Source: a virus
Direction: 5' to 3' (one strand)
Length of the DNA: 64,000 nucleotides
IMG/VR virus record: IMGVR_UViG_3300050821_002260
Location: 27,992-91,991 of that record
In this document: positions 104 through 50,363 of the stretch, piece after piece
How the letters are laid out: each line of letters opens with the position of its first letter
Numbering within the stretch: position 1 is the stretch's first letter
Translations under genes and position numbers: made by a program
The notes under the pieces: model-generated
What the model was told of the DNA's origin: nothing
Seen by the model: only the letters and a program-made list of their open reading frames with translations
The model's database searches: none

Positions 104-117
104 CTAAGAATTACTTT
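104..117 (-). promoter_or_regulatory. Putative late promoter element (AAAGTAATTCTTAG)
   Basis: One of about eleven copies of an AAAGTAAYTYT element found just upstream of late-region genes. Here it overlaps the end of the glycosyltransferase gene (stop TAG at 104-106) and lies about 40 nt before the start at 66. Its promoter role is inferred from recurrence and position. Confidence 0.4.
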
Positions 118-1306
118 CTAAGAGTTCTGTTATTTTGCTCGCTACTACGTCTGGTGAAAGCTGTGCTAGACATGGAGGAACAGAGCCAGCAGATCGGCAA
201 CTACCAGTGTCTATGAAGCACCCCGTCGTACAAGACTTCTCGCCGTTCTCTAGCAATCCAGTCACATATGGAACACGCATCCCATGCGCTGTAGGGAAGT
301 AATGAAGAAACGGCTCCCACTCATGGGGTCCATACGTCACTAGACATTTCCCGCCTCTAGATGCCTTCGCATACAAGAGGCCCGTATCCGAGCTACAATT
401 TAGGTGTGATTGTATGACCATCGCTGCTGACTCTCTTAGCGAAAATGCTCCTGATAGATTAGCGATATTTGTGCCCATCCACGGCTCGCCTTTTCGCACG
501 TGAGAATCGAGCACTATCCAGAAGTAGTTTCTAGAGCACAGTCTCACAACCTCTTTCCAGTACGGATAATCCTTGTACATCGTGCTGGCGTGGGGCAGGA
601 GAGTTATGACCTTGAAACCCTTGTTCTTGATAGGCGTTAGGAGCCTGTCTGCCAGCGTGAGTTCTTGCTCAGTAGGATAGTAGTAGACCGTGCGCTCTTC
701 TCTGGTCATATCTTCTGGGCCGACATGAGCGTGCTGGCAATACATGTCCAGTGCGATATGCTTGTAACGCTGGATTACTGAATGACTGGCCTGCTTGACG
801 AAATCTTGTTCATCAGCGTTCAGTTCGCTAGGGTTTTTCCTGAGCAGAGAAACCATGAATTCGTTGAGCTGAGGCTTTGTCCTGAGGTGGATTTTGTAGT
901 CTAGACCACCCTTGAGCGGCACATCATAGTTCAGCCAGTACCAGTCCTCTGTCATGGAATCGAACATATCCTCAGTGGCGTCGTAGTCCAGGAAATGCAG
1001 CACTCTGTCGATGTACGGATTCCCTTTCAGGATATCTGGATAGCGACAGATGTAGACTATGGTACATTTTGGGAATTTCTTCTTGAGACCGTACATGGCG
1101 GGTGTAGAATATAGAACGTCTCCAAGTCCCCACGTGTGATTCACGACCACTGTTTTCCCGTTGAGATCGGTGTCCTTTGTGAATTCTTTCCTGAGAGCAA
1201 GCCTCTTCCTGTAATTTCCCCACTCGTAGTGCCTTACTTTTTGGCCGAGAACGTTTGTGATAATTTCTGCTTTAGAGATAGGGATGCTTGGTGGTACTTC
1301 CTGCAT
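104..1306 (-). CDS. GT9-like (heptosyltransferase-type) glycosyltransferase
   Basis: A 400-residue protein resembling the ADP-heptose:LPS heptosyltransferase fold (GT9, GT-B). The N-terminal half has a typical G-LGD-x-(L/I) nucleotide-binding turn (NHTWGLGDVLYSTPAMYGLK, about residues 56-75) followed by a FPKCTIVYICR strand. The C-terminal half has ITLLPHAST and later HLNCSSDTGLLYAKA, the place where GT9 enzymes keep the S/T-x-D-(S/T)-G sugar-nucleotide loop. ATG 1306 has a good Shine-Dalgarno (TTGGAGG). It overlaps the preceding gene by 72 nt. With the next three genes it forms a glycan-modification cluster. The acceptor is unknown: host surface glycan or virion protein are both possible. 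Confidence 0.7.
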   Translation of the reverse strand: MQEVPPSIPISKAEIITNVLGQKVRHYEWGNYRKRLALRKEFTKDTDLNGKTVVVNHTWGLGDVLYSTPAMYGLKKKFPKCTIVYICRYPDILKGNPYIDRVLHFLDYDATEDMFDSMTEDWYWLNYDVPLKGGLDYKIHLRTKPQLNEFMVSLLRKNPSELNADEQDFVKQASHSVIQRYKHIALDMYCQHAHVGPEDMTREERTVYYYPTEQELTLADRLLTPIKNKGFKVITLLPHASTMYKDYPYWKEVVRLCSRNYFWIVLDSHVRKGEPWMGTNIANLSGAFSLRESAAMVIQSHLNCSSDTGLLYAKASRGGKCLVTYGPHEWEPFLHYFPTAHGMRVPYVTGLLENGEKSCTTGCFIDTGSCRSAGSVPPCLAQLSPDVVASKITELLESNS

Positions 1307-2181
1307 GACTTATCCTCCAAGAATTTCAGTTCATTGGCCTTGAACAACTCGAACGCTGTTTCTGGTGTAGAAAACATGGCGTGGCACGTTTGCCCACTCG
1401 CATAGTTTTCTGGGTCGCAGAACGTACCGCGCATAGACTTTAGATTTGGCGGGAACCACATCGTATGCGGCGTATCTACTACATCAGCCAGGAACCCTAG
1501 GCCAGACGGGAACACAAAGAAGTAGTCTAGCTGGCGGATTATCTCAACAGTCGCGCCAATATGGAAAGCGCCGAGAGTGAGATAGGATGGTATATTATTC
1601 GAGAGCATCCACATGTGAAGCAACTCAGCAATTTGCAAATCATACTCCGCTCCTAGGAAGACGAACTGGGAATCTTTAGGAACGACTTTGATGACCAACT
1701 CTAGAAACTTTCGCCACTCCTCATAGGTCCAAAATCCCCAATGACGAGCGTTGCCATACGCTGAACAGTAGACACCGATTACTGGAGAGTCTTGCAGCCA
1801 CACGCTATTTAGAAATTCTTCAGCATGTGAAATATACTTCTTGTTGTCCATCTCGTAATGGTAGCTAGTTTCGCCAGGAATCCAGTCTGCCACAAGATAG
1901 CCATCCTCTAGCCACTGATTGATTGACAGGAAGTAGTCCCCGTCTGGCAGTGAAGCTAAGTCAGTACCTGGAGGCAGCGTCTGTGTTACTGAAATCATGG
2001 CGTTGTGACCGGCGTACCCACCGTTCTTGACTCCAGGCAAGATATCTAGGAATGGGGACATTCTGTTTGGGCTGTCGTTGGCGGGTTTGATGACCATTTC
2101 TCTGTCTATGTTGCACAATTTTTGATACATAGCAGAGAAATCGCCTATGCCTGGAGGGACGTAGAACGTTAGGCTCACCAT
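1234..2181 (-). CDS. GT9-like glycosyltransferase
   Basis: A 315-residue relative of the neighbouring gene. The N-terminus VPPGIGDFSAMYQKL carries the GIGD turn typical of GT9 enzymes. The middle (SPVIGVYCSAYGNARHWGFW; VPKDSQFVFLGAEYDLQIAELL) matches the Rossmann-like C-terminal domain, and IRQLDYFFVFPSGLGFLADVV corresponds to the sugar-nucleotide loop. ATG 2181 lies only 1 nt after an AGGAGGGG, so GTG 2178 is the better start. The start overlaps the stop of the preceding gene. Probably arose by duplication with the next gene. Confidence 0.65.
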   Translation of the reverse strand: MVSLTFYVPPGIGDFSAMYQKLCNIDREMVIKPANDSPNRMSPFLDILPGVKNGGYAGHNAMISVTQTLPPGTDLASLPDGDYFLSINQWLEDGYLVADWIPGETSYHYEMDNKKYISHAEEFLNSVWLQDSPVIGVYCSAYGNARHWGFWTYEEWRKFLELVIKVVPKDSQFVFLGAEYDLQIAELLHMWMLSNNIPSYLTLGAFHIGATVEIIRQLDYFFVFPSGLGFLADVVDTPHTMWFPPNLKSMRGTFCDPENYASGQTCHAMFSTPETAFELFKANELKFLEDKSCRKYHQASLSLKQKLSQTFSAKK

Positions 2182-4464: not shown

Positions 4465-4473
4465 AGTGTCTCC

Positions 4474-5273: not shown

Positions 5274-7215
5274 CTAAACCGTGCCATCATCTCCGAGAAA
5301 CAGGAAACGGCTATCAATCATGCCGACCTCAAAGCGGGAACGCGACTTGAAACGGTAAACTTCCATCTGGAACGACTGCCCAGATGCCGGATTCTCTTGG
5401 ATGATTTCCAAGGGGTCGCGGCGCTGAAAGACCAAGCACTTCTTCGGGTCGCCAAGAATCCAAACTTTGGAAGTCAGGAACCTGGATACCAGAAGCTTGT
5501 ACAAGCCTTGCAGCGGGTTCACCGTGTTGACGTAACCCGTAGCGTCAGAGGACGCGGACGGAACAGACGGCTGCAACGTAGAATTCAGCAGCTTGGCTCC
5601 CACGAACTTGTCGATTGGCGAAACCAATAGAGTGTTCGGAGAGACCAAGAACTTGTTTCCAAGTGGGTCCGTAATGTTCATCAGCGAAATATCTGCCGAT
5701 TCTAGGTTAGCTTGAGACAGACGCGTGAAAGTGGCAGGGCGATTGCCCTTCGGTAGAGTGTTGTATGTGCCGTTGCCCACTCCGCCAACGCCTACTGTAT
5801 CGTTGTTGAAAGTCACATCTGGGTCGACAGTGACCCCCTGGACCGTGAATCCAGTGCCGATAATCTTCCCGATCACGTAAATTTCTTCCATGATCTTGAA
5901 GTTTTCGCCCATCTGGGATGCACGGTTCTTAATTTGTCCCGTCTGCATTCTGTTACTTGCTAACCCTGCGACAACTAGCAAAACTATCGCAAGGCGGACC
6001 ACCTGTTTCCAGTGGTCTCTACTTGTCACCAAGCAGTTCGGACTATATCTTTTCGGAGTCATGCTGCCCTCCGAGTCTGGCGTGTAGTCTCTACGGATTT
6101 CATGAGTTTCTGAAAATGAGCCTTCCAGTAAGACCTATTTACATTTGTTCTAGTGTGACAAGGCACGCAAAGAGAAATCAAGTTGTACATCCAACAGTTC
6201 TTCTTATCGTAGTTTATGTGATGAACCGACAGACGCTTTGGGTTTTTCTTATCACACTCTCTACAAGTGTGATTGTCACGAACTAGAACTCTTCTCCTAA
6301 GCCTGCGAGTCCACCGTTCGTGATATGGATGCTCTGTAGAACCACCGTTCCATAGCGGATGATTCTTACCGGCCATGACACCGATGTGAGCCAAACTAAG
6401 AGCATCCTTCTGAGCCTCTGTACGTTTCATACCTAGATTGTGAGAACCGTTTTCTCGATTATATCTCTTCAGTGACCTTGAAATTCTAGAGCCAACTTCA
6501 GGTCTCGAAGCTGGATTTCTCTTTCCAAGTTTAGATTGGCTAATTCTCTTTCGGCCTTCTTTCGTCTGACGACACATTTCTGTGCCATTCTTTTTGAAGA
6601 AAGCTATAACGGACTTACTGATTCGGCGACGGACGGAGGCTCTCTTAGCCGGGTTCTTGCTTCCCAGCTTAGAGGCCCTTATCTTGGCCTTTGTTGCTTC
6701 CGTATGATGCCAACCTTTTCCTCTCATGATCTTTCCTCGGTATTGTCTCGTCAGTTGACGAGAGGTTCACCGATATAGCCAGATTTATCGACGACCAGTG
6801 TTAACAAATCGTCGTCAAACAATTCGCGCTCGAACGCCTCAATCATACCGAATTTCTGGTTGGTCAAGTGGCGGTCGAGTCCAACTACTGGATTGTCCTG
6901 GAACTCTTGACCACGATCAACTCTCTTCGGTAGATTGGGACGGAACAGCGGAGCGTAATACTCTTGGAAGCGGCGGGATGCCACTTCTGTGACTAGATCA
7001 GGATATACGACCGGGACCGTGTTGTAACTGTTGATTGCATAAGTTTGGATACCCGCCCTCAACAGTTGGCCGAATGCAGACTCAGCATTAGCTTCCCGCA
7101 ACCTAGTAGCCTGATTGTAGACAGACTCACGGAGGCGTTTGAAGCTGAGCTGAGGGCTGAACCAATCGATCTTGGCTGCGACCTCTTCCCATGGACCTAC
7201 TGGACGTGTGCTCAT
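5274..7215 (-). CDS. Major capsid protein, gene interrupted by a group I intron (two exons)
   Basis: Exon 1 is 6758-7215 and exon 2 is 5274-5964. Joining them gives 1149 nt, a 382-residue protein. Exon 1 alone would end at a TGA only six codons past the inferred splice site (reading ...GYIGEPLVN-stop). Exon 2 continues with LASNRMQTGQIKNRAS in the frame that the splice restores. ATG 7215 is preceded by GGAGGC. The call rests on gene order (protease-scaffold, decoration-type protein, then this gene), length, and a following terminator; no signature motif was used. The N-terminus carries two L-R-E-(S/A) motifs at residues 28-31 and 39-42, candidate prohead protease cleavage sites. The exact splice junction is inferred from the U-before / G-last rule and frame restoration. 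Confidence 0.8.
5965..6757 (-). other. Group I intron in the major capsid gene (about 793 nt)
   Basis: The 3' part holds AAGATATAGTCC (6040-6051), the classic P3/P7 core sequence of group I introns. The upstream GACTA in the end of the HNH frame can form P7 with TAGTC, and CGGAG/CTCCG can form P8. Downstream hairpins include GACCAC...GTGGTC with a GAAA tetraloop and a GCGATAG/CTA..TCGC stem (P9-type). At the 5' end, CTCGTC and GACGAG around AACT form a P1-like stem over the predicted splice site. The last exon base is T (6758) and the last intron base is G (5965), as expected. P1 shows U-A rather than the usual U-G at the splice site, so the boundaries may be off by a few bases. Confidence 0.85.
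6059..6727 (-). CDS. HNH homing endonuclease encoded in the group I intron
   Basis: A 222-residue protein. The N-terminal half carries NUMOD3-type DNA-binding repeats (HHTEATKAKIRASKLGSKNP and a second copy near KRISQSKLGKRNP). The C-terminal half is an HNH nuclease: CRECDKKNPKRLSVHHINYD with KKN and a closing CVPCH zinc pair. ATG 6727 has SD GAGGAAAG and begins 30 nt into the intron. The 3' end of the frame overlaps the intron core (the P7 strand). It is expected to cut intronless capsid alleles and spread the intron. Confidence 0.88.
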   Translation of the reverse strand: MRGKGWHHTEATKAKIRASKLGSKNPAKRASVRRRISKSVIAFFKKNGTEMCRQTKEGRKRISQSKLGKRNPASRPEVGSRISRSLKRYNRENGSHNLGMKRTEAQKDALSLAHIGVMAGKNHPLWNGGSTEHPYHERWTRRLRRRVLVRDNHTCRECDKKNPKRLSVHHINYDKKNCWMYNLISLCVPCHTRTNVNRSYWKAHFQKLMKSVETTRQTRRAA

Positions 7216-11251: not shown

Positions 11252-11358
11252 TATTGATTCTCCCTAGAAGCGATTGGCGGGTGAGGAGGAAGATGGCCTG
11301 ACCCGCCTTCTCGCTGTGCGCTGACATAGGCCAATGCGTCGTGGATTGTCTTTGCCAT
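11251..11358 (-). CDS. Small hypothetical protein (35 aa)
   Basis: ATG 11358 to TAA 11251-11253, the stop overlapping the next start as TAATG. It begins MAKTIHDALAYVSAQREGG and ends Pro-rich. A copy of the AAAGTAATTCT motif lies 16 nt upstream, but no clear SD is visible. The tight overlap argues for translation; there is no recognisable family. Confidence 0.4.
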   Translation of the reverse strand: MAKTIHDALAYVSAQREGGSGHLPPHPPIASRENQ

Positions 11359-11373
11359 GTTATGTTCGCTATG

Positions 11374-11385
11374 TAGAATTACTTT
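11374..11385 (-). promoter_or_regulatory. Putative late promoter element (AAAGTAATTCTA)
   Basis: An exact copy of the recurrent motif, lying in the gap between the stop of the two-helix membrane protein and the start at 11358. Confidence 0.5.
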
Positions 11386-14701: not shown

Positions 14702-15072
14702 TAGAGTGTCGAGTCGTTCTTGATGGTCAATAGCCCATCGTCTGCTGAGATTAGAATCAGGCCAGTATTGAAAGTCACTTGAACGGAATATCGAAACACG
14801 CCGTCTTTTCCCATGCTTGGCGGAGCGGCTAAGTCGCCAGCCACGAATACGTATTGGACAATCCCGCCGGAAGGATTCGTGATTGTCATATTCACTTGTT
14901 TTGATGGAGGCAGTGGTTTGCTCTTGGTGTCACAGATAACAAACGAGAGTTGGACCTGTGTAGCGCCTGACAGATTGAGCGGCGTGGCCGCAGGGGGAGT
15001 TTGGCTCTGGTCTATGTTCACCAGATTCAGCTGGAGAGTGTTGCCGACTTCTCCGATTGTTAGGTCTGCCAT
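14701..15072 (-). CDS. BppU-like N-terminal domain protein (tail/baseplate)
   Basis: 123 residues from ATG 15072 (SD AAAGGCG; an upstream in-frame TTG is less likely). The sequence LTIGEVGNTLQLNLVNIDQ, then LNLSGATQVQLSFVI, IVQYVFVAGDL and VFRYSVQVTFNTG fits the small beta-sandwich found at the N-terminus of lactococcal phage BppU and many tail proteins. It follows an AAAAGTAATTTTG promoter-like element and lies next to the fibre genes. Probably attaches adhesins to the tail. Confidence 0.6.
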   Translation of the reverse strand: MADLTIGEVGNTLQLNLVNIDQSQTPPAATPLNLSGATQVQLSFVICDTKSKPLPPSKQVNMTITNPSGGIVQYVFVAGDLAAPPSMGKDGVFRYSVQVTFNTGLILISADDGLLTIKNDSTL

Positions 15073-15087
15073 AGTTTCGCCTTTGAA

Positions 15088-15100
15088 CAAAATTACTTTT
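15088..15100 (-). promoter_or_regulatory. Putative late promoter element (AAAAGTAATTTTG)
   Basis: Recurrent motif upstream of the BppU-like gene; shares the form AAGTAATTTTGTTC with the copy before the portal gene. Confidence 0.5.
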
Positions 15101-21848: not shown

Positions 21849-22690
21849 TGGGCACAATCCAGTTGGAACGTGATTTGCTTAGGACCGGAAATCGTCGTTA
21901 TAAAAAATCCAAGTGTGTCGTTCGCAGAAAGCGTCGTCGATGTGAAGTCTGTTACCGTCGTCGAATCCACTTTCGTACCAGATGCCAACGAAACTCCGCT
22001 CGTAGAAATCGAATTTGAGCCAACTGTCGGAAGCGCAGTTCCACTGTTAATTCTAGCTGTCTTGATGGTCACGGTACCAGAGTCTGCCATGATGTGATAG
22101 CCAATAATAGTACACGGAAATGGAACTGTAATATAACCGACTTCACTCGTCGTCAAAGCTGAGCCGGTTGCTACGTCTCCGAATGCCCATCCGAGTGTTC
22201 TAACAACACCATGTTGGAACGCGAAATAATTGGTTCCGTCTGTATAAATCGTGGCTCCCTGACCTCCAGGGAGAGGCATACTAGCAGCCGCACTCACATA
22301 ACTTGAACCATTAAAATAACTTATGTTAGAAGTCGTTGGGGTTATCGTTTGAAGGCCCGTACTGATATTTGTAATGTTCCAAACGACCCCTGCTCCACAC
22401 GTGGACGCATTTGGCATTGTCGGCGTCTGAGCAGAAGCGTTGCTCAATTGGACCAATTTCAAACTGTCAGCACAGGTTATTGGATAGTTGGAACCAGTCT
22501 GAAGATTGATGCCAGAATTCGCTACAAAGACATTCTGCGCTTCTAGTGGCGAAGCCAGCATCGAAAGACACATCAGCAGAGCAAACAGCTTTCTTTTCAT
22601 AGTGACACTCCTATATTTAGAGTTACCAGTCTCATTTCCAGCGTTTGACCCTGTGTGGACATGATTCTGTGCCCATGTTGGAGTTGCCAT
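21845..22690 (-). CDS. Fibre/secreted protein with two alternative starts
   Basis: 281 residues from ATG 22690 (SD AAGGAGG), or 251 residues from the in-frame ATG 22600 (SD AGGAG, preceded by a promoter-like GTAACTCTAAATATAG). The short form begins with a signal peptide MKRKLFALLMCLSMLASPLE followed by AQ. The long form prefixes 30 polar residues (ATPTWAQNHVHTGSNAG) that would hide the signal. The body has FANSG-type beta strands, GGQGATIYTDGTNYFAFQHG and a C-terminal sandwich (TIIGYHIMADSGTVTIK) as in tail-fibre tip proteins. The gene may make both a virion form and an exported form. Confidence 0.55.
   Translation of the reverse strand: MATPTWAQNHVHTGSNAGNETGNSKYRSVTMKRKLFALLMCLSMLASPLEAQNVFVANSGINLQTGSNYPITCADSLKLVQLSNASAQTPTMPNASTCGAGVVWNITNISTGLQTITPTTSNISYFNGSSYVSAAASMPLPGGQGATIYTDGTNYFAFQHGVVRTLGWAFGDVATGSALTTSEVGYITVPFPCTIIGYHIMADSGTVTIKTARINSGTALPTVGSNSISTSGVSLASGTKVDSTTVTDFTSTTLSANDTLGFFITTISGPKQITFQLDCAQ
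22616..22629 (-). promoter_or_regulatory. Putative late promoter element (CTGGTAACTCTAAA)
   Basis: A variant of the recurrent motif, 16 nt before the internal ATG 22600 and inside the longer reading frame. Supports independent use of the shorter start. Confidence 0.35.
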
Positions 22691-27035: not shown

Positions 27036-27050
27036 TTATTTCTCCTTAAA

Positions 27051-27061
27051 TGAAATTACAG
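27051..27061 (-). promoter_or_regulatory. Weak copy of the late promoter-like element
   Basis: CTGTAATTTCA, a diverged copy of the AAAGTAATTCT element, 16 nt upstream of ATG 27035. Confidence 0.3.
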
Positions 27062-27062
27062 A

Positions 27063-27407: not shown

Positions 27408-27428
27408 TTCGTTCCTCTCTCATTACAG

Positions 27429-27442
27429 TAAGAATTACTTTA
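27429..27442 (-). promoter_or_regulatory. Putative late promoter element (TAAAGTAATTCTTA)
   Basis: A near-perfect copy of the recurrent motif, in the gap between the 27444-27698 stop and ATG 27407. Confidence 0.5.
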
Positions 27443-32559: not shown

Positions 32560-32575
32560 TGAAACCTCCGCATAT

Positions 32576-32587
32576 TAGGAATTACTT
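32576..32587 (-). promoter_or_regulatory. Putative late promoter element (AAGTAATTCCTA)
   Basis: Copy of the recurrent motif between a hairpin terminator and GTG 32559. Confidence 0.5.
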
Positions 32588-32602
32588 CGGGCAGGAAAGG
32601 GT

Positions 32603-33269: not shown

Positions 33270-33282
33270 CTAACCTCCAACA

Positions 33283-33296
33283 CTTAGAGTTACTTT
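33283..33296 (-). promoter_or_regulatory. Putative late promoter element (AAAGTAACTCTAAG)
   Basis: Copy of the recurrent motif, 14 nt before ATG 33269; also overlaps the 3' end of the 33295 gene. Confidence 0.5.
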
Positions 33297-34936: not shown

Positions 34937-35151
34937 GCTTGAGTTCCTCCCGTGTACCTAGAGTTACTTTTCATAGCGACTCCTTTTGCGGCTGCATCTA
35001 TAGCTGGATAAATCAGTTCTGCGAATTGCTGCTCTGTCATACCCAACTTGGAGAAATTTCGACAGACTACATCGACCGTGACTGACCCGCCGAATACCGA
35101 AGCGTGGACTGTCACAGTCGCGTCCTGATACTGGATGACTTGTGTTGGCAT
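34933..35151 (-). CDS. Small hypothetical protein
   Basis: 72 residues from ATG 35151 (SD AAGGAG). A beta-hairpin N-terminus (VIQYQDATVTVHASVFGGSV) and a helix (EQQFAELIYPAIDAAAKG). Its 3' end contains the promoter-like motif (encoding MKSNSRYT). No family recognised. Confidence 0.5.
   Translation of the reverse strand: MPTQVIQYQDATVTVHASVFGGSVTVDVVCRNFSKLGMTEQQFAELIYPAIDAAAKGVAMKSNSRYTGGTQA
34957..34971 (-). promoter_or_regulatory. Putative late promoter element (AAAAGTAACTCTAGG)
   Basis: Copy of the recurrent motif, inside the 3' end of the 34933-35151 gene and 21 nt before ATG 34936. Confidence 0.45.
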
Positions 35152-40420: not shown

Positions 40421-40669
40421 TCAGTCTCCTAGGATAGCTTCTTTGTACTCGGGCTGTTGGATTAGGAATCTCATAAGGCGAATTCGGCCTTCCGTCCCGG
40501 TCTTGTTGAAGATGTTGTAGATGTGGTTCTTGACCGTGTTTTCAGTAATAGACAGTTCTTGGGCTATAGCTTTGTTCGTAAAACCTTTGCAAGCTAGAAT
40601 CGCTATCCTCTTCTCAGCTTTAGAAAGCTGTCTATTGTCTGTGCTGCCATTGCTCTTTGGACCAGTCAT
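40421..40669 (-). CDS. LuxR-type helix-turn-helix regulator
   Basis: 82 residues from ATG 40669 (SD AGAGGAG, ATGA overlap). A lone GerE/LuxR HTH domain without receiver or ligand domain: LSKAEKRIAILACKGFTNKA, IAQELSITENTVKNHIYNIF, NKTGTEGRIRLMRFLIQQ. The T-E-N-T-V-K-N-H recognition helix is canonical. A standalone HTH may repress or activate phage or host promoters. Confidence 0.75.
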   Translation of the reverse strand: MTGPKSNGSTDNRQLSKAEKRIAILACKGFTNKAIAQELSITENTVKNHIYNIFNKTGTEGRIRLMRFLIQQPEYKEAILGD

Positions 40670-40902
40670 AGTTCTCCTCTGCGTCTGCCGCGTTCTTCTG
40701 GTCGCTTCTCCAGTATGATTTTGCGAATATTGCCGTCTCGACACCTCACTTGCCAGCGGTCTAGCTTCTCGTTGTAGATAAACTTGTGGTCGCATTTGTA
40801 GCAGCTGCGACATCGCGTGCACTCGTATTCGAATATGTGATTGCAAGGGAGTTCGTGTGACGGAGGCAGACCTGTAGTGACTTGATATTGTTGGTAGAAC
40901 AT
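40666..40902 (-). CDS. Cysteine-rich small protein
   Basis: 78 residues from ATG 40902. Contains CTRCRSCYKCDHKF (three cysteines with C-x2-C-x2-C), preceded by LPCNHIFEYE. The C-terminus is very basic (EKRPEERGRRRGEL). Possible zinc-dependent nucleic-acid contact. Coupled to the LuxR-type gene. Confidence 0.5.
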   Translation of the reverse strand: MFYQQYQVTTGLPPSHELPCNHIFEYECTRCRSCYKCDHKFIYNEKLDRWQVRCRDGNIRKIILEKRPEERGRRRGEL

Positions 40903-41674: not shown

Positions 41675-41880
41675 GATTTTTTCTTTGTCTTAGAGTTGGA
41701 GCCGTGCTCTACGTCGTACTGTCTCAGCTGTTTCTTCTTCTCTTTAGCGCAATGGGAACAGAATGGAGATTTAATGCCGTAGACAATCTTGCGTTCGTCT
41801 CTTAGAATTATCCTGTCTGGACGCGGACAATTTTCGCCTACGCATAGAGGCCATTCAATTTCTTTCTCGTTTCGATGCAC
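41671..41880 (-). CDS. Small zinc-ribbon-like protein
   Basis: 69 residues from GTG 41880 (SD AGAGGGT), overlapping the portal C-terminus by 26 nt. CVGENC and FCSHCAKEKKKQ give a C-x4-C ... C-x2-C set. Begins HRNEKEIEWPL. Basic C-terminus. Resembles phage cysteine-ribbon proteins of unknown role. Confidence 0.5.
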   Translation of the reverse strand: MHRNEKEIEWPLCVGENCPRPDRIILRDERKIVYGIKSPFCSHCAKEKKKQLRQYDVEHGSNSKTKKKS

Positions 41881-44800
41881 CGTACCCTCTTGGAGAATTC
41901 CGCTTGCCAGATGCTACTCCGTGTGCGGATTTCTCAGTGGGGAAATTCTCTGTCCTGGGCCTTTGGAGGCGCTCACCGTCTTGAGGCTTGAAGGGAGACA
42001 TAGATTCTTTCTGTTTGACACCTAGCATCCCAAATGTTTGTTTCAATTTGCTAATACCATGACCTTCGTCCTGTACTTCACCTTTGCTATTCCTGTGTTT
42101 CCAATGACCATCTGACCAGATTGTCAGTGTGCCTTTATTTGGATGCTTGTATGCCTTGACGTTGGAGTTTCCCTTGAGAAACTTAAATCCACTAGCCTTA
42201 GCTAGTTCCGTAACTTTCTTATGAGGGCCACTTCCAGGTCCACCTTCTTGAATTTCGCGTGGGAAGCGGTAGTGGCCGTCGCTGCCCCTGACCGCTTCCT
42301 TGTTCAGGTTGCCATGCTTCGCAGCTTTCTTTGCTTTGGTAATCAGGTCGCCTCTATCGAGCGACTTTTGGTCTCGCACCTTATGCGGAGACTGAATACG
42401 ATCCTGTCTCCTCCCGACCCCATGACGCTCGTACCGTAGATTTGCTGCTTCCCGTTTGATATTGCTTGCCATGTCACGTGGGTCGCGCCCTGCCCAAGGA
42501 TCATGCTTTCCATCTGCCCCCACGCTTGCGTTATGAGTTGTTGCAATTCCTTGTCTGCCGGGGGATGCTGTTCCGGGAGCAACGTCTTCATCTGATTCCT
42601 CCAAAGCGTTCTTGACGATACTTACGACCTGCCTAGCTTCCTTGTCTTCGCCTTCTTCAGCTTCTCCTGTAGACTGTTTGGAAGAGGATGAGCCAGACCC
42701 GCCTGCTCCTGGAATCTTGCCCATCCCCATTCCGCTTGCGCCTTTTCCACTTCCACCAGAAGACGTTCCACCTCCCTGACCCGTTTGAGCAGAGTCGGTA
42801 CCCTTGGTCACCTGCTGATACGCAGTATTGATCAAGAATTCCTTCATTGCATCTTCCTCTGCGATAGATTGCTGTTCCTGGTCGTAGTCGTAGCTGGTCA
42901 TCTGCATTTCCTTGGCGGCAGCAGATGCCGTCCTGCGATGCGACCACCACGACATAGACTCGCCGAACGCGAAGTCCTTCAGCTTCTCGGACCTGTTCTC
43001 TTCTGCGAGCGCTGGATATGTGGTCTCGACAGTGACGCTGAGGTCGCGCGGTATTTCGCCACGATCTTTGGCGCGTTCGAAGACCCGCTGCGCGTCTTGC
43101 AGGAAAAACTCTTCCATTAACTCTTGCTTGTCTTCAAACGTCTTGATGTCAGGCTCTGTGCCTACGAGCGCTTCTGCTTTCCCGCCGCCAGAACCGCTGC
43201 CCATGTATTGCTGTGATAGACCGACGCCCATGCCGATGATGACCAGCAACATTTCCCAGTCGCCTTGCGTCTCTGGAGCGCCGACTTCTGCCTTGACGCC
43301 GTTAAGTTCTGCCGCTTTGTTATGGATAAAGAAGCCGCCGGGAGTCGGGGGATTCATCATCTGCTGTTGGACCTGCTGGACTGTAGCCGCGTCGCCTTCT
43401 ACCGCGACGTCTAGGATGAACAGATTCGCCATCTTGTTGCGGACTACGCGGTCTGTAGCGTACTCCTTGATGCGCTTGAGCCAGCCCAAGACCGCGAATA
43501 GTTCGCTGCGACCGCGGACTTCGCCTTCCACTGTGTTAATTTTCATGTGGAAGTAATGGAGCGCTGGGACTTGTCGAATGATGAACTTGATTGTTGGGAC
43601 TGGTAGATCAACAAACCACATGTAGCGCGTGGGGTACTGCTGATGGATGTAAAATTCGTTGTCAGCGTCGTCTGGGTCCGTAATCACTTCCCAAACTGTT
43701 GACGGGTCCAGTTGGCGCAACTTCAATCCCCACGGCGCATCGTAGTACCGAATAAACTGTTCTCCAAAGACCAGTAGACTGCGGAGAATTTTCTTGCTCG
43801 TGATGTGCAGATTGTTCTTGGTCCAGTGCCTATCAAGGATGGTCTGGCATTGCACTTTCCAGTCTTGTGGCTGCCTGACCTGCCCACGAGAAATGTTTTG
43901 CGCCATCTGTTGCAGGTTGCCAGCGTTAGGAGTTTGCTTCTTCTGTGCCTGCTCTTCAGCACGAGACAGCGCACGCATCACTGTCATCTTGACGCCTTTG
44001 CCGAGTACGAACTGAGTGATGACATTGACTATCCGCTTGGCGATTGGATTATGTGTAAATGCTTGATAGGCTTTACTGTTGTGACTAAACACACCGATAG
44101 ACAAGGCGAAATTCTGATTCCTGTAATCAGATTCAGCGGTTTCAATGTGATAGACTTTTCGTTTACCTATTGGATAGACTGCCACAACTTTGTGATTCCA
44201 ATATTTTCCCCAACGAGCTCCTAACATTGCACGTATTTGCTTCTCTTTCTTCTTAGGATCTTTGTATCTCTTCTTCAGAGAAGCCACAGTTTTTCTTCTG
44301 CGTTCTGGTGTCCACGTCTTTGGATATTTTCCTTCAGCGTGTGCTTTCTTCTGGGCATCAGATAATTTTTTCCTGCCTTCTTCAGACACCTTTACGCCAA
44401 CCCTACCTTTAGAGATTGCTCTGTAAATCTCATTTCGCTCTCCAGAAGCGTGTTGTCTAGCGACCTCTTTAGAGCGTTTGGCATTCACTTCAGGAGTATT
44501 GTGAGCGCGGTGCAATTCCATGTGCTCAGGATAAGTCACAGCTTTCAGGTTCTGCGGTGTATTATTCGCTTTCCTAAAATCACTGTGATGAATCAAGTAG
44601 TGTTCGCCAGTTTCCTTAAATAATTGTGCTGTAGTCTTTCCGTTTTGATATTCGTAAGAAATCTGATGAGTGAATTCCCACTTTTCTGATTCAGGCTGCC
44701 ATAGACTTTCGTATCCAGACAAACCATTTCTTTTTCTGTAGATACGATACAACGGCATCATACTATCTTCTGGTAACAGTTTTCCAGATTCTTTGAAAGT

Positions 44801-45853
44801 GCCATCCCTCATTAACATCAGGTGGTCTTCTGACGCTATAAAAGACCTGCCACTATCTAGAAGCACGCAGACACATTCCTTCTCACCCATCTCGTACACG
44901 TTGGTCAGCTTGACGGGCTCAATTCGTTGTGAGTCTTGATTGAACTTATAACCCCAGACAAATTTCTTATGTTCTAATTTTTTCTTCAAATCTAGAATTG
45001 TCGGGTTCGTTCCATCGAGCAAGGCTATTTCTGTGTCTCCAGAAAAACAATGTTGATCGAGGTAGTCGAACCAGTACAATTGCTTGTTGTACGGTCCGGC
45101 TATCAGCGGCGTGAAGTCCGGCTCTCTTCCAGCTAGATTGAAACTGTTCCCGCCGTCCCAGTTGGGACTAATCTGCCCTACGCCGCCAGAGCTTCCGATG
45201 TCCTCCTGTGAGAAGAAGTCCTCGCGCAATTTCTTGTACTCGTTGACGAAGCCTGACTCCTTCAGCCTGCGACCGATTTGCCTGTCCACCTTGTTATAGA
45301 GGCCGACCAGCTTGGGATTCAGCCTGACGCCAGCCACGGTCGCTTGTCCGGCTTCTCTCAGCTTGGTTCTTTTTGCTAGACCCGACAATAGCTCCGTCTG
45401 AATCTTGGCTTCTCTCAGCTTTCGGTAGTACGGGGATTTCATGTAGTCAATGAGCGTGGGATAGTGCGCTTCTCTGAATATCCCGTTCTTCATTTGTGCT
45501 ACTGAGGAAATGATCAGCTTAGCGTCCACGTCCATGACGACCGCTTCTTTGTGGTAGGTGATTTGCGTCTGACTGGTTTCGTCTGGACGGGAGATAGCGT
45601 CCATTTCTTCACGAGTCGGTGGCGTGATGTACGGATTGGACATCGTGATATACGGCTTGAACGGGGCGACCTTGGACTCGGGGTCGATTGTGGGGAGCGG
45701 CGCTCCTTCGTCTACGTAGTCCTTGCCATTGTTGAACTGGTCCTTCTCGCGTTCCAGTTTGACGGACTGCTTGCCAGACGCGCTACGAATGAAAGGGAGC
45801 GGCGCGTTCTTGTTGGGAGGCGAGTTGGTCGGGTTGACTACTTTGGAAGCCAT
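41855..45853 (-). CDS. Portal protein precursor interrupted by an HNH intein
   Basis: 1332 residues from ATG 45853 (SD CAGGAG). After removal of the 324-residue intein (residues 269-592) the portal is 1008 residues. Portal character: AYQAFTHNPIAKRIVNVITQ, SKKILRSLLVFGEQFIRYYD, ALHYFHMKINTVEGEVRGRS, EYATDRVVRNKMANLFILDV. The C-terminal 300 residues are an accessory extension with a Gly/Ser-rich linker and a GGPGSGP module near residue 1200, followed by VTELAKASGFKFLKG. L-x-E motifs (KLREA twice, RLKES, KLRED) lie in the N-terminal 210. A promoter-like element lies upstream. Confidence 0.88.
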   Translation of the reverse strand: MASKVVNPTNSPPNKNAPLPFIRSASGKQSVKLEREKDQFNNGKDYVDEGAPLPTIDPESKVAPFKPYITMSNPYITPPTREEMDAISRPDETSQTQITYHKEAVVMDVDAKLIISSVAQMKNGIFREAHYPTLIDYMKSPYYRKLREAKIQTELLSGLAKRTKLREAGQATVAGVRLNPKLVGLYNKVDRQIGRRLKESGFVNEYKKLREDFFSQEDIGSSGGVGQISPNWDGGNSFNLAGREPDFTPLIAGPYNKQLYWFDYLDQHCFSGDTEIALLDGTNPTILDLKKKLEHKKFVWGYKFNQDSQRIEPVKLTNVYEMGEKECVCVLLDSGRSFIASEDHLMLMRDGTFKESGKLLPEDSMMPLYRIYRKRNGLSGYESLWQPESEKWEFTHQISYEYQNGKTTAQLFKETGEHYLIHHSDFRKANNTPQNLKAVTYPEHMELHRAHNTPEVNAKRSKEVARQHASGERNEIYRAISKGRVGVKVSEEGRKKLSDAQKKAHAEGKYPKTWTPERRRKTVASLKKRYKDPKKKEKQIRAMLGARWGKYWNHKVVAVYPIGKRKVYHIETAESDYRNQNFALSIGVFSHNSKAYQAFTHNPIAKRIVNVITQFVLGKGVKMTVMRALSRAEEQAQKKQTPNAGNLQQMAQNISRGQVRQPQDWKVQCQTILDRHWTKNNLHITSKKILRSLLVFGEQFIRYYDAPWGLKLRQLDPSTVWEVITDPDDADNEFYIHQQYPTRYMWFVDLPVPTIKFIIRQVPALHYFHMKINTVEGEVRGRSELFAVLGWLKRIKEYATDRVVRNKMANLFILDVAVEGDAATVQQVQQQMMNPPTPGGFFIHNKAAELNGVKAEVGAPETQGDWEMLLVIIGMGVGLSQQYMGSGSGGGKAEALVGTEPDIKTFEDKQELMEEFFLQDAQRVFERAKDRGEIPRDLSVTVETTYPALAEENRSEKLKDFAFGESMSWWSHRRTASAAAKEMQMTSYDYDQEQQSIAEEDAMKEFLINTAYQQVTKGTDSAQTGQGGGTSSGGSGKGASGMGMGKIPGAGGSGSSSSKQSTGEAEEGEDKEARQVVSIVKNALEESDEDVAPGTASPGRQGIATTHNASVGADGKHDPWAGRDPRDMASNIKREAANLRYERHGVGRRQDRIQSPHKVRDQKSLDRGDLITKAKKAAKHGNLNKEAVRGSDGHYRFPREIQEGGPGSGPHKKVTELAKASGFKFLKGNSNVKAYKHPNKGTLTIWSDGHWKHRNSKGEVQDEGHGISKLKQTFGMLGVKQKESMSPFKPQDGERLQRPRTENFPTEKSAHGVASGKRNSPRGYGASKRERN
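44078..45049 (-). other. Intein with HNH homing domain inside the portal
   Basis: Residues 269-592 of the precursor. Cys1 with block A CFSGDTEIALLDGTNPTILD; block B GRSFIASEDHLMLMRDG (the T/S-x-x-H site); block F KVVAVYPIGKRKVYHIETAE; block G ending FSHN with +1 Ser (SKAYQAF). The middle holds an HNH-type nuclease: HYLIHHSDFRKANNTPQNLK, then NUMOD3-like helices (SEEGRKKLSDAQKKAHAEGK). All splicing residues appear intact: Cys1, penultimate His, terminal Asn, Ser+1. Confidence 0.92.
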
Positions 45854-45866
45854 TTGTTCTCCTGAA

Positions 45867-45879
45867 CAAAATTACTTAT
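45867..45879 (-). promoter_or_regulatory. Putative late promoter element (ATAAGTAATTTTG)
   Basis: Recurrent motif in the gap between the terminase nuclease stop and the portal ATG. Confidence 0.5.
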
Positions 45880-46526
45880 CAATACTGACTCCTGAAGACA
45901 TCATAGGGGTCCCCAATGTGGTGTCTCCTTCCGGTCCCTCCCGCTATCACGACCGCGAATCCCTTGCTAGTGCCGCCAGCGTATTCTTGATTTACGAAGT
46001 CGGGCCCTGTCAGCATGTGGACCACGCCGCACGCCGCGTCCACTGTGTCATCGTGGTCACCGAACGGTGCATCCAGCGCTTCCTTGATGAAACGGCGGAA
46101 ACACGGATGCGCTTCCAGATGTCCATGACTGCCTCTGACGGCGCGGATGCGGACTCTGCCTGTTTCGAAGTGTGGCGTGGACAGCTGCCATTTGTAGACC
46201 TTGTCTCCAGGCTGATCGACTGGGACCACTGGCAATCCCTTTTCCCACGCTTGCTGACCGAGTGCCCACTGGTAGCCATTTCGCTCGACGCCGATTTTCA
46301 CAGAATGCCATGCTACGTGCTCCCTGACCATAACTCTTACTTGATCTGGGAAGGGGATTTGCGCTCTGTACATATCTAGCAGATAGACCAGTTCTTTTAT
46401 CCTGACCGCAGTACACAGACAGAACCAGTCAGCTTGGACCGTTCCATCTGGCTTCACCTTGACGCCCGGATCGTTTTCGGACTTCAAAGCCAAATCAATA
46501 TACTGGAGCGGCCTAATCGTTATCAT
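45879..46526 (-). CDS. Terminase large subunit, nuclease part (separate gene)
   Basis: 215 residues from ATG 46526. RNase-H-like nuclease landmarks of TerL: strand with aspartate QYIDLALK, ADWFCLCTAVRIKELVYLLD (usual T-x-I-V-V...D-A/M-Y pattern), PVVPVDQPGDK, and the C-terminal aspartates in APFGDHDDTVDAACGVVHML. No ATPase motifs are present; these are in 48252-49511. The break falls at the usual ATPase-nuclease linker. The start overlaps the upstream zinc protein stop (ATGA). Confidence 0.75.
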   Translation of the reverse strand: MITIRPLQYIDLALKSENDPGVKVKPDGTVQADWFCLCTAVRIKELVYLLDMYRAQIPFPDQVRVMVREHVAWHSVKIGVERNGYQWALGQQAWEKGLPVVPVDQPGDKVYKWQLSTPHFETGRVRIRAVRGSHGHLEAHPCFRRFIKEALDAPFGDHDDTVDAACGVVHMLTGPDFVNQEYAGGTSKGFAVVIAGGTGRRHHIGDPYDVFRSQY

Positions 46527-46672
46527 TTTGTCGCGTGTTCGCTATTGCATTTCGGGCACTCGTCGTGGCGGTCTAGCTTTGTGCCGCAGATTGAACAGTA
46601 CAAATCGAACCTAGTGCCCTTTGGTCTTTCCGACTGCTTTTTCACTTCTGTTAGGCGTCTGCTTGTTGCCAT
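46523..46672 (-). CDS. Small zinc-ribbon protein (49 aa)
   Basis: 49 residues from ATG 46672 (SD AAGGGGAAG). Basic N-terminus (ATSRRLTEVKKQSERPKG), then FDLYCSICGTKLDRHDECPK with two C-x2-C pairs. A double-ribbon zinc knuckle. Overlaps the 46611-46751 gene and couples to the terminase nuclease by ATGA. Confidence 0.55.
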   Translation of the reverse strand: MATSRRLTEVKKQSERPKGTRFDLYCSICGTKLDRHDECPKCNSEHATK

Positions 46673-46751
46673 TTTTCTTCCCCTTCTTGTTGTGCAACCA
46701 GTCTGCATTTTCTGCTGTATCGTCGATGCGTACAGTTTTTATTTTCTTCAT
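46611..46751 (-). CDS. Small basic protein (46 aa)
   Basis: 46 residues from ATG 46751, whose ATGA overlaps the ADP-ribosyltransferase stop. Reads MKKIKTVRIDDTAENADWLH then a Lys/Asn/Gly-rich tail (NKKGKKNGNKQTPNRSEKAV). Overlaps the zinc-ribbon gene in another frame by 62 nt. The coupling suggests it is translated; function unknown. Confidence 0.45.
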   Translation of the reverse strand: MKKIKTVRIDDTAENADWLHNKKGKKNGNKQTPNRSEKAVGKTKGH

Positions 46752-47914
46752 GTCATTTCCACGTCGCCCTTCTTGAACTTTTCGAACGGTTGGTGATGTC
46801 CCACTATGTATTCTTTCTCGCTAGAATGCGACGAGAACAGCCACGGCGTCGCGCTATGGACAGCCCAGATATTGCTAGGGTCCACTTTGAGTTTGAGCAC
46901 GACATCTCCAAAGCCGGAAGCTACAGATTTAGACTGGCTCCAACTGCTCAAACTGTTGACCGCCAGTTTCACCTCACCGTCGTTTTTGATGGCGTCGATT
47001 ATGTCCTTAGCCGCTTTGCCTGCCACGCCGCGATACAGAACTGAGATGCCCTGTTCTTTTGCGTAGGCTCCAGCGTAGGCTTTCATAGCCATGACAGCCG
47101 GTTTCATCTTGTCAGCATCGCCCTTTGTTTCGTCGTACTCGTCCTTGATTTTGTTGCTGTGACCATCGGTGTATTCACCGCTCGGCTTGCGACCGTAATA
47201 CTCCATAGCGACCATGCGCATCGCTTGCGGCTTGTCAGAATTCACAGTACCAGTCCATGCTCTGACAGCGTATTCCATGCTATCTCTAGAGTCTTGAGAA
47301 ACTCCCATCTCTTTGTAGTAATTGCTGAATAGCTCCTTGGAACCCTTGGGATCGTTTGGTCCCATAGACATGTAATCTTTGGCGAGCTTAGTTGCCTTAG
47401 CTTCTGTCTCTTCGGTCCTCTTCTCAGACTCTGGAGTTTGGACAGACGCTCTATTAGCAACGAATAAGCGAATAGAAGCTTCGTCACCTAGCTTGAACAG
47501 CCCACCTTTGCCAGCGCCAGATATTTCCAGAGACCATCGACCAGTTTGCTTGCCTGCTTTGCGAATACCGTTTAGAGAATGCTTCTGGTCCTGGTCTTCG
47601 GAACTCATCTTCGATTTCAGTTCTGAAAACTTAATCCAATCACCATTTAGAGACTCTAGGAAATTGTACGTCTTCCCTTTCAGTGAGCCATGCTTCCAAT
47701 AGCCTCCGGCTTTGGATGGGTCGATGGTCTTGCTGCCATACTTGGATTTCTTAGGAGTATCGTCTTCCTGTTTATGGTGATGCCACTTCTGGCCGAGGAC
47801 GCCGTGCTCAGTGAGACGTGTGGACTCCACGAATTTCTGCACTCTGACTGTGAATGGCAGCGGTCGATGCAGTATTTTGTTATACTGAGCTATCGACTCT
47901 TCCAGAGACCACAT
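46748..47914 (-). CDS. Mono-ADP-ribosyltransferase-like protein with HGVLGQKW motif
   Basis: 388 residues from ATG 47914 (SD GGAGTGGAG). Near residue 36 is EHGVLGQKWHHHKQ. Residues 60-140 hold a basic beta module (GGYWKHGSLKGKTYNFLESL). The C-terminal 180 residues have the R-S-E triad of ADP-ribosyltransferases: Arg in SVLYRGVAGK, S-x-S-type LSSWSQSKSVASGF, and E-x-E in SSEKEYIVGHHQ, with FGDVVLKLKVDPSNIWAVHS between. Fits arginine-type or related ARTs such as T4 Alt/ModB, which modify host proteins and can be injected. Position inside the terminase operon suggests virion packaging. Confidence 0.75.
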   Translation of the reverse strand: MWSLEESIAQYNKILHRPLPFTVRVQKFVESTRLTEHGVLGQKWHHHKQEDDTPKKSKYGSKTIDPSKAGGYWKHGSLKGKTYNFLESLNGDWIKFSELKSKMSSEDQDQKHSLNGIRKAGKQTGRWSLEISGAGKGGLFKLGDEASIRLFVANRASVQTPESEKRTEETEAKATKLAKDYMSMGPNDPKGSKELFSNYYKEMGVSQDSRDSMEYAVRAWTGTVNSDKPQAMRMVAMEYYGRKPSGEYTDGHSNKIKDEYDETKGDADKMKPAVMAMKAYAGAYAKEQGISVLYRGVAGKAAKDIIDAIKNDGEVKLAVNSLSSWSQSKSVASGFGDVVLKLKVDPSNIWAVHSATPWLFSSHSSEKEYIVGHHQPFEKFKKGDVEMT

Positions 47915-48137
47915 TTCGTCTCCACTCCTTCAATATCAAACTCGCCTCTGTGCCCCAGTCCATAGACCTCATCAGCGCCCCGACCTTGTCCTTGTGGTCA
48001 TCATCCATTTCTGCCTGCCTGCAATAGAGCCATAGACCGATTGCTTGGAAGAATTTACGCTGGATAGTGACTGGCATGGAGTGTGCAAGGACAGGTGCAA
48101 CTCTTTTTTGTGCAGTTGTTATGGTTTCCATGAGCAC
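47880..48137 (-). CDS. Hypothetical protein
   Basis: 85 residues if started at the first Met codon region (48137); ATG 48077 (PVTIQRKFFQAIGL) is another possibility, neither with an obvious SD. Helical (LWLYCRQAEMDDDHKDKVGA; LILKEWRRNVVSGRVDSSV). Overlaps the flanking genes on both sides by up to 83 nt, so the true start is uncertain. Confidence 0.4.
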   Translation of the reverse strand: MLMETITTAQKRVAPVLAHSMPVTIQRKFFQAIGLWLYCRQAEMDDDHKDKVGALMRSMDWGTEASLILKEWRRNVVSGRVDSSV

Positions 48138-48255
48138 ATGCGTGACTCACCCCTTGCGTTTTCATTAGATGTCCATGAGTTTTCTTAGCTCTTCTCTTAG
48201 CTCTCAAATCACTCCATGTAGGTGCATTGAAATGTATTGCTTCAGCCAGCCTCAT
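48055..48255 (-). CDS. Small Cys/His-rich protein
   Basis: 66 residues from ATG 48255 (SD GAGGAG, ATGA overlap with the terminase stop). The C-terminus has ACAHGNHNNCTKKSCTCPCT plus HASH, a dense Cys/His cluster likely binding zinc. The N-terminal part is basic (RAKRRAKKTHGHLMK). Function unknown. Confidence 0.5.
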   Translation of the reverse strand: MRLAEAIHFNAPTWSDLRAKRRAKKTHGHLMKTQGVSHACAHGNHNNCTKKSCTCPCTLHASHYPA

Positions 48256-49511
48256 GCTGCTTTCTCCTCTACTTCTGGCAAGAGATAGTGGTAGCCGTCT
48301 TCTTCGTTGAGGTACAATTGCTGAGAATCAAAAAAGTAGAACCAATCTTTCTTGAAAATTGCTCCCTCACCTTCCTGTATCTCATTCTGCTTCTCTCTGG
48401 AAAATGAAGTGATTCCCTGAGTCACACGGTCCATGAGCAATTCTCGGATGCCCCATCCAAACACCATCGGCTTCTTAGTTTCGGTATCTATCAGTGGCTC
48501 CCCAAAATTGTTCACCTTCTCTGTGGCTGGCCAAAGCACTTCATAATCGTCTGTGAGCAGTTCCACGTCCACGATTTGCTCTTCCGCCTTGACGTCCTGT
48601 AGACCGCGCACGTACCTTCCTGTGTCCGTGATATAGACCCATCCCTCGATTTCCTTGTCTGGATTCTTTGGGTCGGGTATCATCGGATACTTGATGATGG
48701 CTTTCTCTACGTTGTGCTTCCACGTCCGTGTTTCAAGCAATGTATTGTATAGATCTCGTCTGTTTTTCCTAGTTCCAGTAACTCGAAACTGAGTTGGCGG
48801 TTCGCGTAGATTCCAGACCGTGCCCCAGAACCAGTTTTCGATGGTTGCCATGCGTTCGATGGTCTTTGTGTTTTCATCGTCGAGTGGGTCATCGGCATTG
48901 ATTGTCTCAAAATGACCGCCAGTAATACCTCCAAGCACTCCGACTTTCTCATAGGTGTGGTCCTTCTCTACGCTGTCGTGGATATTTCTCTTACAACTGA
49001 ATCTGCTCTTGAGCCAATTGTTCGGGTCGCGTATATCCCCAAAATCTTCGTTGAGATAATGGTTCTCTTCTATAGTGACTCGGACCTGTTCGGCGTATTT
49101 TCCAGCCATCTCATCGGTCTTGGAAATTTGCAGGAATCGGTACGTGACCGCTTCTAAATGGTTCTGTATCAGGTTTTCGTAGATGCGGTAGAGCGGCTGT
49201 CCATACGAGAATATCCAAGATTTGCCATGATCGCGTGGTGCCAGTTCTAGCAGGTATTTCACGCTCCAGAGTTGCAGCCAGCGACGCTGATGCTCTGGCA
49301 ACCGAAATCCAAGGTAGTAAGTGAGGAAGAACTCCGGGCTATGCAGGACCAGTTGATGGCGGAATTCTCTAGACGTGTATTGCCTGATGAGAGTCCGCAA
49401 GCCGTTGATGCCTTGACCCTTGGCTTGCGAGAGCAGGTCAGCTAGCTTTTTCTTGGTCGACTTCTTGAACTTCGGAATTGTCGGCATTTGGAGCAGGAGC
49501 AGGCAACGCAT
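48252..49511 (-). CDS. Terminase large subunit, ATPase part (separate gene)
   Basis: 419 residues (411 from ATG 49487). Walker A-type LELAPRDHGKSWIFSYGQ, adenine-side RRWLQLWSVKY, Walker B-type TINADDPLDDENT, coupling motif VTGTRKNRRDLY. The sequence ends soon after FKKDWFYFFDSQQLYLNEED, the region where a full TerL passes into the nuclease domain. That domain is encoded 1.7 kb downstream (45879-46526). It translocates DNA into the capsid in complex with the portal. Overlaps the upstream gene by 74 nt or 50 nt depending on start. Confidence 0.85.
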   Translation of the reverse strand: MRCLLLLQMPTIPKFKKSTKKKLADLLSQAKGQGINGLRTLIRQYTSREFRHQLVLHSPEFFLTYYLGFRLPEHQRRWLQLWSVKYLLELAPRDHGKSWIFSYGQPLYRIYENLIQNHLEAVTYRFLQISKTDEMAGKYAEQVRVTIEENHYLNEDFGDIRDPNNWLKSRFSCKRNIHDSVEKDHTYEKVGVLGGITGGHFETINADDPLDDENTKTIERMATIENWFWGTVWNLREPPTQFRVTGTRKNRRDLYNTLLETRTWKHNVEKAIIKYPMIPDPKNPDKEIEGWVYITDTGRYVRGLQDVKAEEQIVDVELLTDDYEVLWPATEKVNNFGEPLIDTETKKPMVFGWGIRELLMDRVTQGITSFSREKQNEIQEGEGAIFKKDWFYFFDSQQLYLNEEDGYHYLLPEVEEKAA

Positions 49512-50109
49512 TGATTACCTTGCTCACCGTCTTCCCCTTGACAATCTTGGGCTGGACTTCCTTGCCGCCTCCAGCCATGTTCCTGAAAGCTTCCACGAAC
49601 GCTACCATGATTTCCTGGTCCATCGGCTTATGCAAGTGCTTGACTGAACCGTGCATTTTCACAGCGCCAGATATTTGTTGCTTGCTCTCCACATTCTTTT
49701 TGTAGAAGCCACGACCAGCTAGGAACTTTTCAGCGACGTTGTAGCGGAGATAGTCGTCTGGAGAGTCCATGGCTTCTTCTACGATACGAATTGCGCGACC
49801 CGCTTTGGCATCTAGGCGACCGTCGATGTTTTCGGCGTACTTGGCGGCATAGTGCAGATAGTAGTTTTTGAACAGCTTGTGATAGTGCATGTAGCGGTAG
49901 AACGTGTTGGTATCCATGCCCATCGTCTTGCAGGCATCCTTGACAGTCATTCCGTTGACGACCTTGCGAGCTAGCTTCATTTGCCTGCGAGTCAGCTTGT
50001 CGTAGCCTCTCGGGACTATCTTCTCATCGCGCATCCGCTCTCGCATAGAACGTGTGAGAGGAGCGTCTGGATAGTCTTTGAGGAGCCTTGGGAAACGACG
50101 TATTTTCAT
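49438..50109 (-). CDS. Putative small terminase subunit
   Basis: 223 residues from ATG 50109. N-terminus RRFPRLLKDYPDAPLTRSMR, then an HTH: LTRRQMKLARKVVNGMTVKD, ACKTMGMDTNTFYRYMHYHK. The middle is helical (AKAGRAIRIVEEAMDSPDDY LRYN) and the C-terminus is disordered. HTH plus oligomerisation helix directly upstream of TerL fits the DNA-recognition subunit. A promoter-like element lies upstream, so it starts the late region. Confidence 0.7.
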   Translation of the reverse strand: MKIRRFPRLLKDYPDAPLTRSMRERMRDEKIVPRGYDKLTRRQMKLARKVVNGMTVKDACKTMGMDTNTFYRYMHYHKLFKNYYLHYAAKYAENIDGRLDAKAGRAIRIVEEAMDSPDDYLRYNVAEKFLAGRGFYKKNVESKQQISGAVKMHGSVKHLHKPMDQEIMVAFVEAFRNMAGGGKEVQPKIVKGKTVSKVINALPAPAPNADNSEVQEVDQEKAS

Positions 50110-50363
50110 AGTGGCTTTATTTTATCCTTACTGATAGAATTACTTTGGTCTACGTTGGCAAAAATCTTCTTGTAGCCTCGCGTAACGATGATGATTGTAG
50201 CGACAAAGAGCTGTCCTATGAGATGTGAATAGCGGAAAGGGACAGCTACTTCTGTGCCCTTGATAATCATCTCGTATTGCACGTTTAGATTGCCATGCTT
50301 GTCTTCAGTGATGAGCACGCGAGTTTCGGTAGTGTCCTTGTTGACGACTTCTTCCGCCATCAT
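50106..50363 (-). CDS. Small hypothetical protein
   Basis: 85 residues from ATG 50363, overlapping the previous stop (ATGA). Beta-rich N-terminus (ETRVLITEDKHGNLNVQYEM IIKG) and a hydrophobic helix LIGQLFVATIIIVTRGY. The open frame extends upstream but lacks an SD. No family recognised. Confidence 0.5.
   Translation of the reverse strand: MMAEEVVNKDTTETRVLITEDKHGNLNVQYEMIIKGTEVAVPFRYSHLIGQLFVATIIIVTRGYKKIFANVDQSNSISKDKIKPL
50135..50146 (-). promoter_or_regulatory. Putative late promoter element (AAAGTAATTCTA)
   Basis: An exact copy of the core motif, 26 nt before the small terminase ATG and inside the end of the preceding gene. It marks the switch into packaging genes. Confidence 0.5.

Follow-up and report, generated by a model that had tools for sequence, protein, structure and literature searches.

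A probable late promoter of T4-like design with its own consensus in an uncharacterized phage group

A short element, in full AAAGTAAYTYT-N3-T-R, recurs ahead of genes outside the replication block in the 64,000-nucleotide stretch analyzed here (the window), which covers bases 27,992-91,991 of a 91,991-bp viral contig (G000). Its function as a DNA promoter is well supported, and it is most likely a phage late promoter that combines a T4-like design with a consensus of its own. We put the probability at roughly 0.73 that it serves this phage group as its late promoter and is read by host RNA polymerase together with the phage sigma factor encoded at 51492-52208; the assignment to the late phase follows from the genes that the element precedes. 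The initial annotation had proposed a phage-specific promoter before late genes, and this proposal is now well supported by the strand bias, the synteny in relatives, the fixed T-R, and the lack of a -35 element.

Genome organization and relatives

Throughout the 91,991-bp contig, the minus strand is the coding strand and carries nearly all genes. Transcription runs from high to low coordinates, through a replication/recombination block, then the terminase and portal genes, and then the protease, capsid, and tail genes. The block encodes DNA polymerase I-type, UvsY-like, SSB-like, UvsX-like, exonuclease, SbcD-/SbcC-like, sigma-like, Mor-like, and RusA-like proteins; the primase and helicases are found elsewhere on the contig, further along. 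For the stretch searched, no DNA-level relative of the group was found in the phage collection, and a search for a relative in bacterial genomes found none. The terminase has two relatives only, both remote, and the proteins tested have remote relatives at most. Searches with the capsid, TerL, and a sigma alignment yielded seven related contigs (G001 to G005, G007, and G008) plus the shorter G006, and no relatives were found with the portal or sigma protein as a single query.

TerL is encoded in two parts (48252-49511 and 45879-46526) that are separated by an ORF with a weak DRAT-like C terminus (46748-47914). This split arrangement is also found in G001, and the interruption (window 45879-49511) is possibly an intein or intron. 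The major capsid gene (window 5274-7215) is broken by an HNH endonuclease ORF (6059-6727); in the relatives, the capsid gene is a single intact ORF of ~355 codons. The portal ORF (41855-45853, 1332 aa) contains an HNH stretch at residues 413-475 before the portal domain and has intein-like ends.

The element and its sites

Eleven copies on the coding strand had been listed in the initial annotation, and all of them are present, on the minus strand. Equal frequency on both strands, which would have spoken against a promoter, is not observed: over the whole contig, the coding strand carries 8 exact AAAGTAAYTYT copies and the opposite strand none, versus 0.074 copies expected under a third-order Markov model. 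With one mismatch allowed, 9 matches were observed versus 3.6 expected, and 1 of 100 shuffles was as high, so that this count alone is less impressive than the exact-match count. The core followed by T-R is found 32 times on the coding strand versus 7 times on the other strand. A de novo motif search over the gene upstream regions of G000, the kind of check that had been suggested, recovered AGTAATTYT without the motif being supplied, and the upstream regions of G004 gave the related GTAAAYTTAG; nothing clear emerged in the site-poor genomes G001, G002, G003, and G005. This search gave weak patterns with a free site fraction, and the site fraction was then limited. No matching consensus was found in the literature.

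Exact matches make up 7 of the 11 listed sites, site 45868 has one mismatch, and sites 22616, 27051, and 32576 have mainly the GTAAYTYY core in common with the consensus. The eighth exact copy, which was unlisted, lies at 13674-13684 within gene 13422-13991, lacks a T-R start, and probably does not act as a promoter. One extra good site outside the window, picked up by a matrix of the listed sites, is at a gene end ~15.1 kb before window base 1 and is retained in G002 only.

The candidate late promoters, all on the minus strand, are described here in the direction of transcription. The first after the replication block (AAAGTAATTCTATCAG, 50131..50146, an exact match) precedes the small-terminase-like gene 49438-50109, and the second (TAAGTAATTTTGTTCA, 45863..45878) is located 3 nt past TerL part 2 and 22 nt before the portal gene 41855-45853. 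Exact copies with T-R are found before gene 34559-34936 (AAAGTAACTCTAGGTA, 34955..34970), before gene 33060-33269 (AAAGTAACTCTAAGTG, 33281..33296, overlapping the stop codon of gene 33295-33969), and before gene 27063-27407 (AAAGTAATTCTTACTG, 27426..27441, with no Shine-Dalgarno sequence at +9..+17). The copy before gene 32218-32559 (GAAGTAATTCCTAATA, 32573..32588) directly follows a hairpin, and its G004 orthologue, GTAAATTAGGTTAG, is at the same place. Two weaker elements, each with the core and T-R, precede gene 26568-27035 (TCTGTAATTTCATTTA, 27047..27062) and the signal-peptide-like gene 21845-22600 (CTGGTAACTCTAAATA, 22614..22629); the latter gene had been called as 21845-22690, but its start codon should be 22600, which places the site upstream of the gene. 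An exact match (AAAGTAATTTTGTTCA, 15084..15099) precedes gene 14701-15072, with the ATG 24 nt on, and an exact copy with T-R (AAAGTAATTCTACATA, 11370..11385) precedes gene 10529-11251, itself followed by the protease and capsid genes. The last, also exact with T-R (AAAGTAATTCTTAGTG, 102..117), is at the end of gene 104-1306, and the next gene starts at 66, 48 nt on.

The distance from guanine to start codon is 22 to 48 nt, which corrects the earlier figure of about 10 to 40 nt; the exception is site 11382, with 131 nt to gene 10529-11251, or 24 nt if a 35-codon ORF is taken as the downstream gene. Between this element and gene 10529-11251 lies a GC-rich hairpin whose loop contains CCTCC (window 11252-11330), and similar GC-rich hairpins are found at the counterpart of this position in G001, G002, and G004.

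Conservation at gene junctions

The element is present at the small-terminase junction in six genomes (G000, G001, G004, G005, G007, and G008). It is also present at the TerL/portal junction in six genomes, located 2 to 4 nt downstream of TerL in G001, G005, G007, and G008 (as the variant GTAACTAT, 4 nt after TerL, in G007) and before the portal gene in G004. The junction after gene 104-1306 carries the element in G000, G001, G002, and G003, and the counterpart of gene 10529-11251 has it at -127 in G001 and at -103 in G004, with a variant at -88 in G002. In a combined matrix test, 8 of 29 windows orthologous to G000 sites scored at least 10, versus 10 of 394 controls (orthologous windows where G000 has no site), giving a p value of 5e-6 that is to be read as coming from the third form of this test, since two cruder forms, one with loose core matching (p=0.10) and one restricted to narrow 3' ends (p=0.06), were not significant. 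Three of the 10 control matches fall at a single junction downstream of the gene at -2881 to -2372, where G002, G003, and G004 have the element and G000 appears to have lost it. The site before gene 14701-15072 is not clearly retained in G001 or G004, and no core-plus-T-R site was found in G005 and G007.

As had been noted earlier for the window, replication genes lack the element. None of the 13 upstream core-plus-T-R sites in G000, G001, and G004 falls within the replication blocks, which occupy 17 to 23% of these three contigs; this absence is supportive, not strong, because 0/13 has a chance probability of ~0.06.

Promoter geometry

When sites in the relatives were selected by the core only, T-R at +11/+12 from the guanine was found in 12 of 21 upstream sites versus 12 of 98 elsewhere (p=3e-5), and the core-selected upstream sites of G004 have it in 6 of 6 cases. 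The constant spacing suggests that T-R marks the transcription start, with T at -1 and R at +1. With R as +1, the guanine would be -12 and the box GTAAYTYT would span -12 to -5. No -35 sequence is conserved, and no conserved column was found between -60 and -4 relative to the box in either G000 or the relatives. A search for a second conserved motif upstream of the box barely exceeded shuffles and is not convincing.

The position of the element close to translation signals would also fit an RNA-level role linked to the Shine-Dalgarno sequence, either in enhancing translation or in processing of the mRNA. At most sites, the guanine is followed by the beginning of the Shine-Dalgarno sequence at 12-16 nt and by the start codon at 21-31 nt, a spacing that partly confounds the +12 purine with the Shine-Dalgarno sequence. 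However, sites without a nearby Shine-Dalgarno sequence (for example 114, 11382, and 27438) still have T-R at the same spacing, some of these having been chosen with a matrix that contained T-R columns, and conserved sites whose next conserved gene is 88-131 nt away retain it as well. The lack of the element at replication genes and the lack of any Rfam match in the window also argue against an mRNA element, which we consider very unlikely.

An ordinary promoter of the host primary sigma factor, for example with the Bacteroidota -7 box TAnnTTTG, is suggested by TAAYTTTG at some sites; however, TAAYTCTA or TAAATTTA is found at most sites. The coding strand shows no enrichment of TAnnTTTG, TTG near -33 is mostly absent, and the sites do not show the combination of the two that defines a Bacteroidota-type promoter. 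In addition, Shine-Dalgarno sequences are found on 64-88% of genes here, a share unlike that of Bacteroidota genes, replication genes are again without the element, and there is no excess of sigma-70-like promoters. A host-type promoter is, in our estimate, extremely improbable.

A phage-specific promoter is the preferred reading, and its design is T4-like, with an 8-bp -10-type box without a -35 element ahead of late genes and a phage-encoded sigma region-2 protein. T4 late promoters carry the letters TATAAATA, to which the sites do not conform, the consensus here being AAAGTAAYTYT with T-R. If T-R is taken as -1/+1, T-11, A-10, A-9, and T-7 of GTAAYTYT are in register with the T4 box, and only these positions are common to the two. 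In T4, the late promoter box occupies -13 to -6, roughly a helical turn away from the start, and the -35 region is not conserved; variants elsewhere in the T4 family, such as the late promoters of Aeh1 with a/gC at -13/-12, show that the box can drift within an unchanged design (PMC2988020). Within the present group, the -6 base is T in G004 and G008 and mostly C in G000, G001, G005, and G007; covariation of this base with the sigma clade is not claimed, as only one tree split lies behind it.

Candidate recognition factors

The proposed late-promoter recognition factor is a sigma region-2 protein of 238 aa (51492..52208, minus strand), which is identified by Sigma70_r2, by AlphaFold and Foldseek, and by conservation. 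Its gene lies where the replication block ends, shortly before the first candidate late promoter. All five orthologues scanned matched Sigma70_r2 (best 7.6e-7), and the window protein alone matched at 0.0012, under the Pfam cut-off. Five relatives share the protein at 41-48% conservation, and a sigma factor is present in each relative whose matching region was recovered. The AlphaFold model has a pLDDT of 76 and a pTM of 0.42, and its best Foldseek matches are sigma region-2 structures (TMt ~0.7), with no PDB E-value <0.001. Comparison with viral models matched mostly phage sigma factors, some of them full-length, and the C-terminal half could therefore be a degenerate region 4.

The initial annotation had described a gp55-like sigma factor, of which the sigma part is borne out by the Sigma70_r2 matches. 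The gp55 family model phrog_234, to which T4 gp55 belongs, had no match in 8 contigs, and the T4 control matched at 2.5e-70. In hhalign, the profile of the 51492-52208 protein matched gp55 weakly (E=0.014, probability 3%), in register from an N-terminal NNRK/NNKE segment through region 2, and unrelated controls gave E = 0.63-0.76. Since phrog_234 is absent, the profile match is weak, and the gp45 clamp was not found, "gp55-like" is best taken as resemblance only. A protein at 40421-40846 was first taken for the sigma factor and then rejected as a LuxR/GerE-type HTH protein; it is another regulator candidate in the window. G001 has a second sigma-like stretch (59176-59532; phrog_1740, E=4e-4), which is separate from its late-sigma candidate.

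Directly after the sigma gene, and adjoining it, is the gene of a Mor/C-like putative late transcription activator of 121 aa (51197..51562, minus strand). The protein matched phrog_836 at 6.9e-8 and Pfam Mor at 1.2e-4, under the cut-off, and is conserved at 39-53% in 5 relatives. The late genes of phage Mu are transcribed by host sigma-bearing RNA polymerase with a Mor/C-type activator. A Mu-like system here would combine the host sigma-RNA polymerase with the 51197-51562 protein as activator, leaving the sigma-like protein to serve another gene class, in keeping with the adjacency of the two genes in the window, with the conservation of the Mor/C-like protein in five relatives, and with the PHROGs family name, "late transcriptional activator." However, a C-type activator requires a site immediately before the box, where, unlike in Mu, no column is conserved and the motif search did little better than shuffles; the lack of such a site weakens this alternative. 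The box also differs from TATAAT, a phage sigma is present, which is not the case in Mu, and no known structure matches the Mor-like model convincingly, so that a purely Mu-like switch appears unlikely.

Recognition by the phage sigma remains the preferred reading, and the surrounding gene set both resembles and departs from that of T4. The sigma gene adjoins 46/47-like genes, and in T4 genes 46/47 lie near gene 55. In contrast to T4, with its gp55, its short and divergent gp33, and its gp45, the gp55 family model is absent and neither a gp45 nor a beta clamp was found; the DNA polymerase is polA-type, and a Mor/C-like gene adjoins the sigma gene. Aeh1-type T4 relatives differ likewise, as they encode recognized gp55 and gp45. 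The gp45 clamp model PF09116 found nothing in 4 contigs, which may be incomplete, and matched its T4 control; the beta clamp model PF00712 had no match in contigs that may be incomplete, and PF02916 had none either, but its control was silent too. It is conceivable, although doubtful, that a divergent region-2 sigma and a Mor/C-type activator replace the gp33/sliding-clamp pair, which would remove the clamp-based coupling of late transcription to replication.

Discussion

In the mechanism that we propose, host RNA polymerase carrying the sigma region-2 protein 51492-52208 would read an 8-bp -10-type box, GTAAYTYT (-12 to -5), usually with AAA before it and T(-1)R(+1) after it, and without a -35 element. 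Binding of the box by this sigma is the most economical reading and the most likely one. Transcripts would start at the element, mostly with short leaders, before the packaging, portal, capsid-cluster, and tail genes, and the Mor/C-like protein may assist the sigma.

The analysis provides a specific late-promoter consensus, a predicted start, and a named candidate recognition factor for an uncharacterized phage group, and it suggests that a T4-style late box can swap most of its letters yet retain its geometry. Because no clamp was found and a Mor/C-like gene lies beside the sigma gene, the need for a sliding clamp in late transcription becomes testable. A clamp-free late switch made of a sigma factor and a Mor/C-type protein would, if true, operate in a phage group without sequenced isolates.
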